A stretch of DNA of 64,000 nucleotides, from assembly GCF_004565475.1 (NCBI RefSeq), contig NZ_SRHX01000002.1, forward strand, positions 248,001 through 312,000, read 5' to 3'. Origin of the DNA: Lonepinella koalarum. GTDB taxonomy: Bacteria; Pseudomonadota; Gammaproteobacteria; Enterobacterales; Pasteurellaceae. This document shows positions 13,311 through 55,881 of this stretch, piece by piece. The notes under the pieces were generated by a model. The model searched no databases and was not told where the DNA came from. It was given only the letters and a program-made list of their open reading frames with translations. The number at the start of each line of letters is the position of its first letter. Positions within the stretch are counted from its first letter, which is position 1. The translations under genes were made by a program, and so were the position numbers.

Positions 13311-13479
13311 TTTAAATCGGGTTTCGCCCGATGGGCGACCATACTTTCTTTTACTCGCTACGCTCGCACTTCGTGCCGTTGGCAAAGCCAACGTTCAAAA
13401 TTCTACGAATTTTGTGCTTGTGCAAAAGAAAGTAGGCAAAGAAAAGCACACCCCGACTTCACCGCTTATCTTTGCTTAG

Positions 13480-13550
13480 TTGAAATTTTTTTCACGGTAA
13501 AATCGCAACTCGCTACGCTCAGACAAGGCGATTTTGCCTAAAAATTTCAA
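13480..13550 (-). repeat. Hairpin module L1 (inverted relative of R1)
   Basis: Outer arms TTGAAATTTTT (13480-13490) and AAAAATTTCAA (13540-13550) enclose inner arms AAAATCGC (13499-13506) and GCGATTTT (13528-13535). The loop starts AACTCGCTACGCTCAGACA (13507-13525). That loop is the exact reverse complement of the loop in module R1, and the nested architecture is the same, but the stem sequences are different. Confidence 0.8.
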
Positions 13551-13588
13551 GTCGCAAAGGCGGTTTAGACGGGGACCCATGTTTGCCG

Positions 13589-13680
13589 CCTGAAAATGCT
13601 TTAATTTGTAGGAAAATGGCGTCTGTCTGAGCGTAGCGAGTTCAGCCATTTTCTGTTAAGCAAATTAAAGCATTTTCAGG
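13589..13680 (+). repeat. Hairpin module R1
   Basis: A perfect 20-bp outer stem (13589-13608 with 13661-13680) encloses a 9-bp inner stem GAAAATGGC (13612-13620) with GCCATTTTC (13645-13653). The loop contains TGTCTGAGCGTAGCGAGTT (13624-13642). Beyond the outer stem, TTTGCC (13582-13587) can pair with GGCAAA (13687-13692) across a bulge AAACAA. The module R2 near yebC has the same layout with three compensated base-pair changes. Confidence 0.88.
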
Positions 13681-13712
13681 AAACAAGGCAAAGTTGGGGT
13701 GTGTTTCTTTTG

Positions 13713-13744
13713 TTACTTTTCTTTGCACAAGCAAAGAAAAGTAA
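13713..13744. repeat. Perfect 14-bp hairpin at the right of the murE-murF element
   Basis: TTACTTTTCTTTGC (13713-13726) and GCAAAGAAAAGTAA (13731-13744) pair perfectly around ACAA. A homologous hairpin with different stem sequence follows module R2 at 55852-55881, at nearly the same distance from the main hairpin (32 against 30 bases). Confidence 0.85.
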
Positions 13745-13797
13745 AGAACGTGGCGAAACCCGATCTCAAAAATCACAATTTGAAATTAAAAACCAAA

Positions 13798-43977: not shown

Positions 43978-43996
43978 ATTGTTCTCCGTAGTTTTT

Positions 43997-44460
43997 GGGC
44001 GTATGCAATACGCCCCTACGTTTTTGTGATTTCATTGTGTTTTAGGGCGTATGCAATATACGCCCTACGTTTTTGTAGTTTAATTGCGTTTTTAGGGCGT
44101 ATGTAATATGTCCCTATGTTTTTATGATTTAATTGTGTTTTTTGGGCGTATGCAATACGCCCCTACGTTTTTTATGGTTTAATTGTGTTTTTGGGGTGTA
44201 TGCAATATGTCCCTACGTTTTTGTAGTTTAATTGCGTTTTTGGGCGTATGCAATACACCCTTACGTTTTTTATGGTTTAATTGTGTTTTTGGGGTGTATG
44301 TAATACCGTCCCTACGTTTTTATGATTTAATTGTGTTTTTGGGGTGTATGTAATACCGTCCCTACGTTTTTATGATTTAATTGTGTTTTTGGGCGTATGC
44401 AATACGCCCCTACGTTTTTTATGGTTTAATTGTGTTTTTGGAGTGTATGCAATGTACCGT
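43997..44460 (-). repeat. Tandem array of ten REP palindrome units (~49 bp each)
   Basis: Units begin at 43997, 44045, 44095, 44144, 44194, 44242, 44292, 44342, 44391 and 44441, spaced 48-50 bases. Each has the core GGGCGTATGCAATACGCCC followed by CTAC (GTAG on the minus strand), then ACG, a T run, and a spacer like TATGGTTTAATTGTG. Units 1, 4 and 9 keep perfect 8-bp stems; units 3, 5, 6 and 10 have decayed arms; units 7 and 8 are identical over 50 bases. The stretch 43978-44555 holds no gene; a 73-codon frame inside it is an artefact of the repeat. Confidence 0.92.
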
Positions 44461-44505
44461 TATATTTTTGTTATTTTTACCGTTGATGTTTATGGTAATA
44501 AAATT

Positions 44506-44528
44506 GTAGGGGCGTATTGCATACGCCC
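44506..44528 (+). repeat. Single REP palindrome in opposite orientation to the array
   Basis: GTAG at 44506-44509 is followed by GGGCGTATTGCATACGCCC (44510-44528), an 8-bp perfect stem. It lies between the array and the rnfH stop codon, so the array is bounded by inverted copies. Confidence 0.9.
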
Positions 44529-53279: not shown

Positions 53280-55046
53280 ATGATGCGAACTCATTATTGC
53301 GGAGCATTAAACCGTGAAAATATCGGACAGCAAGTAATATTAAGCGGTTGGGTGAATAAACGCCGTGATTTAGGTGGATTGATTTTTATTGATATGCGTG
53401 ATGTGAAAGGCATTGTGCAAGTGTGCTTTGACCCGAAATATCCGCAAGCCTTAGAGCAAGCCGCAAGTCTGCGTAACGAATTTTGTATTCAAATCAAAGG
53501 CGAAGTGATTGCTCGCCCTGATAATCAAGTTAATAAAAATATGGCAACGGGTGAAGTGGAAATTTTGGCACACGAATTGGCGATTTACAATGCCTCTGAC
53601 GTGTTGCCGTTAGATTTCAACCAAAACAACACCGAAGAACAACGCTTAAAATACCGTTATTTAGACTTACGCCGCCCTGAAATGGCGGAACGTTTAAAAA
53701 CTCGTGCCAAGATTACTAGTTTTGTGCGTCGTTTTATGGATGAACACGGCTTTTTGGATATTGAAACCCCAATGCTCACCAAAGCGACACCAGAAGGGGC
53801 AAGGGATTATCTCGTGCCAAGCCGTGTGCATAAAGGCAAATTCTATGCGTTGCCACAATCACCGCAATTATTCAAACAGTTACTGATGATGTCAGGGTTT
53901 GACCGTTATTATCAAATTGTGAAATGTTTCCGTGATGAAGATTTGCGTGCTGATCGTCAACCTGAATTTACCCAAATCGATGTGGAAACCAGCTTTTTAA
54001 CAGCACCAGAAGTGCGTGCCATTATGGAAGAGTTGATCCATGGTTTATGGCTTAACACCATCAATGTGGATTTAGGCAAATTCCCTGTGATGACGTGGGC
54101 TGAAGCCATGGAACGTTTCGGTTCAGACAAACCTGATTTGCGTAACCCATTAGAAATGGTCACCATTTCTGACCTTGTGCGTGAGGTGGAATTTAGCGTA
54201 TTCAAAACTCCAGCCAATGACAAAGGCGGACGTGTGGCAGCAATTCGTGTACCAAACGGATCCACCATTACTCGCAAACAAATTGACGAATACACCCAAT
54301 TTGTCGGCATTTATGGTGCGAAAGGCTTGGCGTGGTTAAAAGTCAATGATGTGAACGGAGGACTTGACGGCGTACAAAGCCCGATTGCCAAATTTTTATC
54401 GGAAGACGTGTTAAAAGCGATTCTTGAGAGAGTCAAAGCCGAAACAGGCGATATTATTTTCTTTGGTGCCGACAAATGGCAAACCACCACTGACGCATTG
54501 GGTGCGTTACGCTTAAAACTCGGTCGTGATCTCGGTTTAACTCGCCTAAACGAGTGGCAACCGCTATGGGTGATCGATTTCCCAATGTTTGAGCGTGATG
54601 ATGAGGGCAATTTAGCCGCCATGCACCACCCATTCACCTCACCAAAAGATTTCAGCCCAGAACAGCTTGAAGCCGATCCAACCAGTGCCGTAGCAAACGC
54701 TTATGATATGGTGATCAACGGTTACGAAGTGGGCGGCGGCTCGGTACGGATTTTCGACCCGAAAATGCAACAAACTGTGTTCCGTATTTTAGGTATTAAT
54801 GAACAAGATCAACGTGAAAAATTCGGCTTCTTACTCGACGCCTTAAAATTCGGCACCCCACCACACGCAGGTCTTGCGTTCGGTTTAGACCGTTTAACCA
54901 TGTTATTGACAGGCACCGAAAATATCCGTGATGTGATTGCATTCCCGAAAACCACTGCAGCAGCTTGCTTGATGACGGATGCCCCTAGTTTTGCCAATCC
55001 GCAGGCGTTGGCGGAATTAGCGGTGGCTGTGGTGAAAGCAGAGTAG
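53280..55046 (+). CDS. aspS: Aspartyl-tRNA synthetase
   Basis: A 588-residue class IIb synthetase. The N-terminal OB-fold anticodon-binding domain ([21 protein letters not shown]) is followed by class II motif 1 ([18 protein letters not shown]), motif 2 ([20 protein letters not shown]), the bacterial GAD insertion domain, and motif 3 ([19 protein letters not shown]). Length equals the E. coli enzyme within two residues. Two adjacent ATGs at 53280 and 53283 are possible; AAGGA at 7 bases favours the first. A REP palindrome forms its terminator. Confidence 0.97.
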
Positions 55047-55050
55047 ATTT

Positions 55051-55078
55051 GTAGGGGCGTATTGCATACGCCCTTTTT
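55051..55078 (+). terminator. REP palindrome serving as aspS terminator
   Basis: GTAG at 55051-55054 is followed by GGGCGTATTGCATACGCCC (55055-55073), then TTTTT. It is the same REP unit as in the array near 44 kb and is identical to the copy at 44506-44528. It begins 5 bases after the aspS stop and ends 7 bases before nudB. Confidence 0.88.
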
Positions 55079-55522: not shown

Positions 55523-55721
55523 AACTCACCCCCAAACCTATCCCAACGGGATGGGGAGGGCAACTGAAAAACATTCAAAGTGCGATAAAAAACCCCAAAA
55601 ATTTTACTCACAATCCTTGATAGGATTGTTCGGAGCTTTGCTCCCGTTGCTACGCAACGTTGAAAATTCCTACGGAATTTTTTCACCGCACTTTTAACAA
55701 CGCAAAGAAAGGTTTCCCCTT

Positions 55722-55834
55722 CTTTGCCGCCTAAAAATCCTTTCATTTGTAGGAAAATGGCGTCTGTCTGAGCGAAGCGAGTTCAGCCATTTTCCGTCAA
55801 GCAAATGAAAGGATTTTTAGGAAACAAGGCAAAG
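55722..55834 (+). repeat. Hairpin module R2
   Basis: A perfect 20-bp outer stem (55730-55749 with 55802-55821) encloses GGAAAATGGC (55752-55761) with GCCATTTTCC (55786-55795). The loop contains TGTCTGAGCGAAGCGAGTT (55765-55783). CTTTGCC (55722-55728) pairs with GGCAAAG (55828-55834) across the bulge AAACAA. Compared with R1, three positions in the left outer arm and the three facing positions in the right arm are changed together, keeping all 20 pairs. The loop span is 52 bases in both. Confidence 0.9.
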
Positions 55835-55851
55835 CAGGGTCGCCTTTTTTG

Positions 55852-55881
55852 GTTACTTTTTTGGCGAAGCAAAAAAGTAAC
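55852..55881. repeat. Hairpin following module R2
   Basis: GTTACTTTTTTG (55852-55863) pairs perfectly with CAAAAAAGTAAC (55870-55881) around GCGAAG. It is the counterpart of the 13713-13744 hairpin beside module R1, with a different but again perfectly paired stem. Confidence 0.85.

Follow-up and report, generated by a model that had tools for sequence, protein, structure and literature searches.

A dispersed family of folded intergenic repeats with a predicted triple-helix pseudoknot in Lonepinella koalarum and other bacteria

The Locus and the Layout of the Element

The window, that is, the whole stretch of 64,000 nucleotides of Lonepinella koalarum analyzed here, holds two hairpin modules in intergenic gaps: R1 at 13589-13680, between what we take to be murE and murF, and R2 at 55730-55821, between what are presumably nudB and yebC (the gene names follow an earlier note on this DNA or are presumed). 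Both modules lie where the earlier note had placed them. Its 20-bp outer stem was recovered as 21 pairs in each copy (20 Watson-Crick and one U·G), and positions 4, 10 and 15 of the left arm do differ between R1 and R2 as it had reported (G-C/A-T, G-C/C-G and A-T/C-G, respectively), each difference being compensated in the right arm. Three right-arm changes placed at random would hit just these partners and bases with a probability of about 3e-5. A fourth compensated pair (A-T/T-A, element positions 6 and 122), absent from the earlier note, was found in the basal stem. The enclosed span had been described as 52 identical bases, which is wrong, as 3 of the 50 enclosed bases differ between the copies. 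The fold energies of R1 and R2 are far below those of dinucleotide shuffles on both strands (z of -6.7 and -8.4 on the plus strand and of -5.8 and -6.2 on the minus strand).

Alignment of the copies revealed that conservation extends well beyond the hairpin. The module first described is the 5' half of an element of about 190 nt, the 3' half of which is also conserved (R1 13700-13764; R2 55840-55881). From 5' to 3', the element consists of a basal stem, the long stem P2, an internal loop, the inner stem P3, an apical region and a 3' domain (Table 1). The letters of P2 are largely free and the asymmetric internal loop is fixed; the apical region carries GTYTGAGCGNAGCGAGTT, and KTAG is present at the P2/P3 junction of the copies. 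R1 is joined to an inverted relative, L1, in a head-to-head unit whose ends, ATCGGGTTTCGCC and GGCGAAACCCGAT, are inverted repeats. No partner copy was found for R2. Judged from these comparisons, R1 and R2 are copies of a dispersed non-coding repeat family. By eye, the copies at two other loci (L037 and L049) likewise stop just before a yebC-like start.

Table 1. Features of the repeat copies in the window (window coordinates; gene names as assumed in the text).
Feature	Position	Strand	Evidence
Head-to-head unit (inverted L1 + R1), murE-murF gap	13316..13764	.	Sequence; sister-species gap of 91 nt without unit
R1, whole element: 5' hairpin, predicted 3' triplex-pseudoknot domain and tail	13574..13764	+	3' domain 63 bits, E 9e-15
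R1 basal stem, 5' strand (CCC and TTTGCC)	13576..13587	+	Fold, pair counts
R1 basal stem, 3' strand (GGCAAA and GGGG)	13687..13699	+	Fold, pair counts
R1 outer stem P2, 21-nt left arm with largely free sequence	13589..13609	+	Fold, pair counts
R1 outer stem P2, right arm	13660..13680	+	Fold, pair counts
R1 inner stem P3, left arm	13611..13620	+	Fold, pair counts
R1 inner stem P3, right arm	13645..13654	+	Fold, pair counts
R1 asymmetric internal loop GTTAA, facing A13610, conserved	13655..13659	+	Alignments
R1 apical region, conserved GTCTGAGCGNAGCGAGTTCA	13621..13644	+	Alignments; present in genomes of other families too
R1 pseudoknot strand S1 (TGTG)	13700..13703	+	Pairs with loop CACA 13726-13729; family test
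R1 predicted third strand of triplex, linker (TTTCTTTT), parallel to purine strand 13733-13740	13704..13711	+	Register test
R1 stem S2, pyrimidine arm	13713..13725	+	3'-domain model
R1 S2-loop pseudoknot partner (CACA)	13726..13729	+	Pseudoknot pairing test
R1 stem S2, purine arm	13732..13744	+	3'-domain model
Copy L1, in inverted orientation to its relative R1, which its 5' end abuts	13315..13575	-	56.9 bits, E 3.8e-13
RF02902 (AaHKsRNA22) element within the 3' hairpin of L1	13338..13423	-	49.9 bits, gathering 39.8
Copy R2 (hairpin 55730-55821 + 3' domain), nudB-yebC gap	55715..55881	+	53.2 bits, E 3.7e-12
R2 pseudoknot strand TCGCC, pairs with GGCGA 55863-55867	55840..55844	+	Pseudoknot pairing test
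R2 predicted third strand TTTTTT, parallel to AAAAAA 55871-55876	55845..55850	+	Sequence
R2 stem-loop S2 TTACTTTTTTGGCGAAGCAAAAAAGTAAC	55853..55881	+	Sequence

Distribution of the Family

A query of 134 bases around R1 retrieved 13 near-full-length copies from the window's own genome. A covariance model of the 3' domain gave three strong matches in the window (R1, R2 and the inverted L1 at 13314-13455) and, in the whole genome, 24 strong matches (E<=1.5e-10), three interrupted by another repeat, and one weak match. Beyond this genome, the R1 query matched 53 of 140 genomes of the family, and the 3' model had matches in 72 of the 272 genera sampled in the class (89 of 369 genomes) and in 31 of 249 genomes of a phylum sample; copy numbers in these large searches are lower bounds, because only the best candidates per genome were scored. 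The matches listed in the pattern scan included Paraburkholderia, Stutzerimonas, Methylomonas, Lysobacter, Dyella, Acidovorax and Desulfobacterales, and one genome of another family (G678, family f161) carries at least 18 related units. Also among the matches listed, a rumen Selenomonadaceae metagenome-assembled genome has two 3'-domain copies outside Proteobacteria, which may be genuine or a binning error. The R1 region had no match in phage records, viral contigs had no exact match to the pattern, and complete E. coli genomes had no match with one Methylomonas query. For the Paraburkholderia copies, a coding reading was rejected because the open frames differ between copies.

Arrangement, Neighbors and History of the Copies

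Across loci L079-L198, 57 of 59 neighboring 3' domains less than 1000 nt apart are head-to-head with their 3' ends outward, and so are all seven pairs within this distance in the window's genome. The flanking genes of 48 pair units could be called, and they are convergent for 24 units, co-directional for 21 and divergent for 3, the flanks having been assigned by a crude choice of open reading frames and loci L079-L158 not being independent, since by their listed names they come mostly from Burkholderiaceae. The 22 single copies comprise 8 in sense and 10 in antisense to co-directional genes, 4 between convergent genes and none between divergent genes. As the parser behind the pair, single, pseudoknot and murE-murF-gap counts requires the third strand described below, copies that have none are missed and single copies may have unseen partners. 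The placement fits tolerated insertion and is without sense bias, and the lack of such a bias among single copies argues against a simple cis role in the 3' untranslated region.

The gap between the presumed murE and murF measures 487 nt with the unit here and 91 nt in the sister species, where the absence of the unit was judged from gap length and the same parser. On this comparison, the unit was gained or lost between the sister species. In five other family members the gap measures 3, 13, 43, 62 and 104 nt, and G132 reads as an overlap. A 3' domain also occupies this gap in G085, and none was detected by the parser in the 679-nt gap of G098. The gap may be a tolerant insertion site. It holds different repeats by species (L315, L319, L322), including the palindrome GTAGGGGCGGA in G033.

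Mean copy identity is 0.87 and 0.90 within two genomes, from two species of the genus, versus 0.82 between them, and three copies of the window's genome cluster with copies of G001. The copy in the yebC gap of the window is 0.90 identical to the best copies of its own genome and 0.84 to those that G001 and G032 carry at yebC. The yebC copy of G001, in turn, is 0.91 identical to that of G032, which belongs to another genus, and at most 0.84 to its own paralogues, which indicates that part of the family was inherited in place. The history of the family is, as far as these identities tell, mixed.

Like a MITE of a DDE transposon, the units have terminal inverted repeats, of 13 nt in the window unit. 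In G678, both ends could be located in 14 of 18 units; these are 814-979 nt long and bear 19-nt terminal inverted repeats on either side with at most 5 mismatches, and no target-site duplication is evident by eye. In some of them (L299, L303, L311, L312), the left and right terminal repeats sometimes share one change, as if the ends were pairing or converting, and in other units the ends differ (by eye). Neighboring genes were surveyed at 33 chosen loci, where 92 of 101 open reading frames were scanned. Two proteins each had a match to 18 of the Pfam families, and among the 25 of 139 families listed no transposase or reverse transcriptase recurred in these 92 proteins.

Other repeats were observed near the copies. 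REP-like palindromes GTAGGGGCGTATTGCATACGCCC occur in the window at 43992-44528 and 55044-55076 and include an array of seven copies spaced mostly 49-50 nt apart; the same palindrome adjoins some copies between their two halves (L003, L011, L012). A further repeat, CCTAGTACTGGCRTACTAGG, lies on the 5' side of copies L004, L005 and L008.

Covariation of the Hairpin and the Strand that Folds

In an alignment of 35 copies, drawn from 48 extracted copies with near-duplicates and copies with inserts left out, 98.1% of pair cells hold standard pairs, and pairing falls to 57% when the partner is slid by one column. Changes on both sides were observed at 22 of the 46 pairs, in 202 cells versus 62 after shuffling. 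Against a tree-based null, 56 copies gave 11 column pairs at E<=0.05, so that the covariation proposed earlier from two copies extends, in the collected copies, beyond what the tree accounts for. Nine of the 11 lie in helices as defined in the analysis, one of these pairs (49-70) in an extension of P3 paired in some copies only; the remaining two adjoin P3 at its apical end. The tree-aware set retained 56 of 95 distinct hairpins, the 39 dropped being about 18 of L-type, 6 of R-type with shifted register and 15 from other families. Loops and internal loops remain fixed in the alignments while the stems drift.

The mispairs are informative as to which strand folds. With the conserved U·G excluded, 1096 of 1176 cells in the inner part of P2 and in P3 are Watson-Crick. 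Of the remaining cells, 33 hold G·T or T·G, only 4 hold A·C or C·A, and 43 hold other mispairs, these being counts of related copies rather than of events. Counted by position over 21 pairs, G·T was seen at 9 and T·G at 7 of them, against 2 for A·C and 1 for C·A. Such a bias of G·T over A·C names the folding strand and argues against a cruciform in duplex DNA, while it would fit RNA and single-stranded DNA alike and cannot separate the two. A function of double-stranded DNA, as a cruciform or as a palindrome bound by protein, for example an intergenic nucleoid or terminator site, is highly improbable on this account; it would suit the placement of the pair units (24 of 48 between convergent and 3 of 48 between divergent genes), but the letters of the palindrome themselves vary, the bias singles out one strand, and the pseudoknot and triplex predicted below use that strand only.

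Orthologous sites in Paraburkholderia, where the consensus fold is poor, speak against a simply conserved fold: compensatory and broken cells number 5/15, 12/9, 2/19 and 7/17, so that broken pairs exceed compensated pairs in three of four alignments. At one of these sites (L249, L254, L255), the element is 73-75% identical and its flanks about 91%, and there is no clear consensus fold upstream of the 3' domain.

A Pseudoknot and a Predicted Triple Helix in the 3' Domain

In our reading, the 3' domain forms an H-type pseudoknot, in which a triple helix is predicted. Strand S1 pairs with the loop of stem S2, as TGTG with CACA in R1 and as TCGCC with GGCGA in R2, and the pairing score is at least 4 in 157 of 175 distinct 3' domains. 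Over 82 distinct combinations the S1 pairing scores 4.27, versus 2.49±0.12 when partners are swapped, and thus covaries; the domains in this test came from the parser that requires the third strand and puts no constraint on the pseudoknot letters.

Between the pseudoknot strand and the S2 hairpin sits a pyrimidine linker that matches the purine arm of S2 in the same direction, with T for A and C for G (TTTCTTTT with AAAGAAAA in R1, TTTTTT with AAAAAA in R2, and TTTTCTTT with AAAAGAAA in others). A parallel linker in the order S1-L1-S2-S1'-S2' (L1 here being the linker, not the copy) corresponds to the major-groove triplex of an H-type pseudoknot, and a major-groove triple helix of this kind occurs in telomerase RNA. 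In Pasteurellaceae copies, which were fetched with the 5' hairpin and parsed with the linker letters ignored, the linker is in register with the purine strand in 44 of 46 scorable copies versus 16.2±3.0 after shuffling (maximum 26 in 5000 shuffles; 50 hairpins parsed). Over all loci to L198, minus the copies fitting the search pattern, 71 of 73 are in register (91 parsed) versus 30.4±3.5. A first test over all loci gave 186 of 196 and was set aside as inflated, because loci L079-L198 had been fetched by a pattern that fixes both strands. The register of the predicted C·G-C and U·A-U triples shifts between copies.

In the tail after this domain (L005, L012, L097, L113, L132), two mutually exclusive hairpins or a second pseudoknot seem possible by eye, for example TCGCC-ATC-GGCGA versus ATCGG..CCGAT.

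The parallel match bears directly on a second proposal of the earlier note, that an intrastrand repair or template-switch process keeps the arms matched. Polymerases copy antiparallel, so copy-repair between the arms is excluded as the sole cause of a parallel match, and the third strand is left unexplained. We regard as barely tenable the general form of this idea, in which template-switch repair or gene conversion between arms or between copies maintains the pairing and the fold is not selected. Conversion among copies may occur, as most copies of the two genomes are nearer to those of their own genome than to those of the other, and the matched changes seen by eye in some G678 terminal repeats would agree with it. 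No copying process, however, gives a parallel third strand, which already contradicts this reading, nor does it agree with loops and internal loops that stay fixed as stems drift or with strand-biased mispairs.

The earlier note's other proposal, selection on the folded form, is strengthened by the tree-aware covariation, the changes on both sides of 22 of 46 pairs, the covarying pseudoknot and the in-register third strand. In its basic layout, as the alignments and tests establish it, the element is a long hairpin with free stems and fixed loops, followed by an H-type pseudoknot with a parallel linker match. Taken together, these results favor a single folded strand as the target of selection, with RNA its likeliest form.

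Mobility and Possible Role

Given that one strand folds, that strand could also be DNA, with a transposase moving a single-stranded hairpin and the fold serving as the transposition signal. REP and REPIN elements are recognized by RAYT (Y1) enzymes, and the inverted doublets, the many related copies in one genome, the absence of any gene that recurs beside the copies and the same-strand tolerance of G·T would all be expected of such a system. The Y1 transposase domain PF01797 was found in 7 of 10 carriers, the window's genome included. We nevertheless consider this reading unlikely, as G001, G694 and G437 (the last 91% complete) have no PF01797 at E<=1e-5, and the REP-like signature of GTAG with a short hairpin belongs to a different repeat in the window.

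A SINE-like retroelement, in which a reverse transcriptase supplied in trans would recognize the triplex-pseudoknot 3' end and start copying the RNA there, would account for an RNA-type fold and a widely conserved 3' end, and the predicted triplex pseudoknot resembles that of telomerase RNA. This reading is very unlikely in view of the distribution of the reverse transcriptase domain PF00078, which was detected in just 4 of 10 carriers and is missing from both genomes of the genus (G001, G694 and G437 lack it, too, at E<=1e-5), and of the head-to-head doublets, which are not expected from target-primed reverse transcription.

The explanation we prefer, as probable though by no means certain, is a non-autonomous interspersed repeat of which R1 and R2 are two copies. 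Selection would act on it as a folded single strand, in the likeliest case RNA carried within the transcripts of neighboring genes. The fold and its strand are supported by the sequences themselves; transcription, protection and any benefit to the host are inferred. Possibly, the triplex-pseudoknot acts as a 3' block against 3'-to-5' exonucleases, which would shield the element and an mRNA ending there. It is also conceivable that inverted doubling lets any transcript through the unit, in either direction, receive one sense copy, and a sense copy for each direction might, equally speculatively, keep insertions harmless or useful. The unit itself would be mobilized passively or indirectly and would survive by means of its compact, exonuclease-resistant transcript end. 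In relatives with a TwoAYGGAY head (see below), the RNA could also bind CsrA/RsmA.

More broadly, and as a tentative proposal with less than even prospects, the family may represent a bacterial class of interspersed RNAs built around a telomerase-like triple-helix pseudoknot. Such a class would be present in about a quarter of the sampled genomes of the class, with outliers beyond the phylum, and would spread without resident PF00078 reverse transcriptases or Y1 transposases; the inverted doubling would provide an RNA function independent of direction, and TwoAYGGAY would be one of several exchangeable heads on a common 3' module. Structured repeats scattered through genomes tend to be regarded as DNA litter. 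In this family, a complex fold of one strand is preserved across many genera (175 distinct 3' domains), together with a predicted triple helix whose register shifts in step on both sides, which makes an RNA action of such repeats directly testable.

Comparison with Known Repeats and RNAs

The earlier note knew of no described element of this kind. For the window copies this holds as far as searched, as no Rfam family matched R1 or R2 at gathering; for the family as a whole it was too strong, since some relatives match TwoAYGGAY (RF01731, clan CL00106). The family is partly known, through this one of its heads. RF01731 was detected in the hairpin part of 3 of 7 sources tested, with L075 (Pseudoalteromonas) at 51.3 bits and L264 at 43.7 bits above the gathering score of 43 and L261 at 41.7 bits below it. 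In G678, where the hairpin part carries the motif as it does in Pseudoalteromonas, 96 matches were found at E<=1e-3, 34 of them over the cut-off, and by eye 13 of the 18 listed 3' domains have a same-strand match no more than about 150 nt upstream. A full-length match to the model (G678:C1:1618075-1618177) ends before the 3' domain, so the Rfam model leaves the pseudoknot and the doublet uncovered. RF01731, an RNA to which no role has been assigned, thus gains a context as the head of a larger dispersed unit in some genomes. In 2010, it was described as "probably" an RNA and probably not cis-regulatory, with a range covering human gut, gammaproteobacteria and Clostridiales in the account given there (PMC2864571).

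On the strength of motif matches, TwoAYGGAY was subsequently proposed to bind CsrA (PMC4333381), and on this basis dispersed copies might act jointly in trans as an RNA that titrates CsrA/RsmA or another RNA-binding protein. We think this distinctly unlikely. RF01731 was not detected in the window at gathering, in the 13 copies at E<=1 or in the window's genome at E<=1e-3; it was absent from 11 of 12 carriers searched and had no match at gathering in 18 loci of other genera. Rfam matches to Yfr17 and to microRNAs were below gathering and not credible.

AaHKsRNA22 (RF02902) occurs together with the element in the window; it is a distinct string of small hairpins that lies next to or within some copies. 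R1 and R2 themselves have no RF02902 match; matches lie inside L1 and beside R2, the latter at 55593-55691 on the minus strand. By eye, the 3' hairpins of L039, L041, L048 and L059 are likewise broken up by a string of small hairpins much like it, which suggests that a second repeat was inserted in nested fashion.

As for repeats in the literature, a search of open-licence main texts turned up no account of the 3' triplex-pseudoknot, of the inverted doublets or of the Pasteurellaceae head, though one may still exist. MRSC motifs (PMC11109978) and SLS families (PMC2267715) are also multi-copy and structured with no set gene orientation, and MRSC-65-2 differs in being a single long stem with UYCCGG (PMC11109978). 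Ppu-1 of P. putida, given there as 617 bp in 39 copies (PMC2267715), could be a pair unit of this kind. The BRE of Bordetella, described as a G+C-rich tandem repeat of about 90 bp, differs in size and in tandem layout (PMC3110155).

The arrangement of the element resembles that of REP/REPIN and BIME repeats. REP repeats are interspersed and intergenic, form inverted doublets and are rarely found between divergent genes, and the element shares all of these features. The doublets fit, whereas the short GTAG-foot hairpin of REP/REPIN does not fit the long variable hairpin of the element, the unit is larger (about 450 nt here and, as noted, longer in G678) and its stem letters vary while the fold is kept. 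We know of no REP, REPIN or BIME counterpart of the pseudoknot and triplex.

Triple-helix pseudoknots are known from telomerase RNA and from the SAM-II and preQ1-II riboswitches. In these RNAs the strands follow the order S1-L1-S2-S1'-S2', with L1 parallel to the purine strand of S2, as predicted for the 3' domain of the element. Unlike them, the predicted triple helix described here belongs to a dispersed bacterial repeat, and its register moves from copy to copy.
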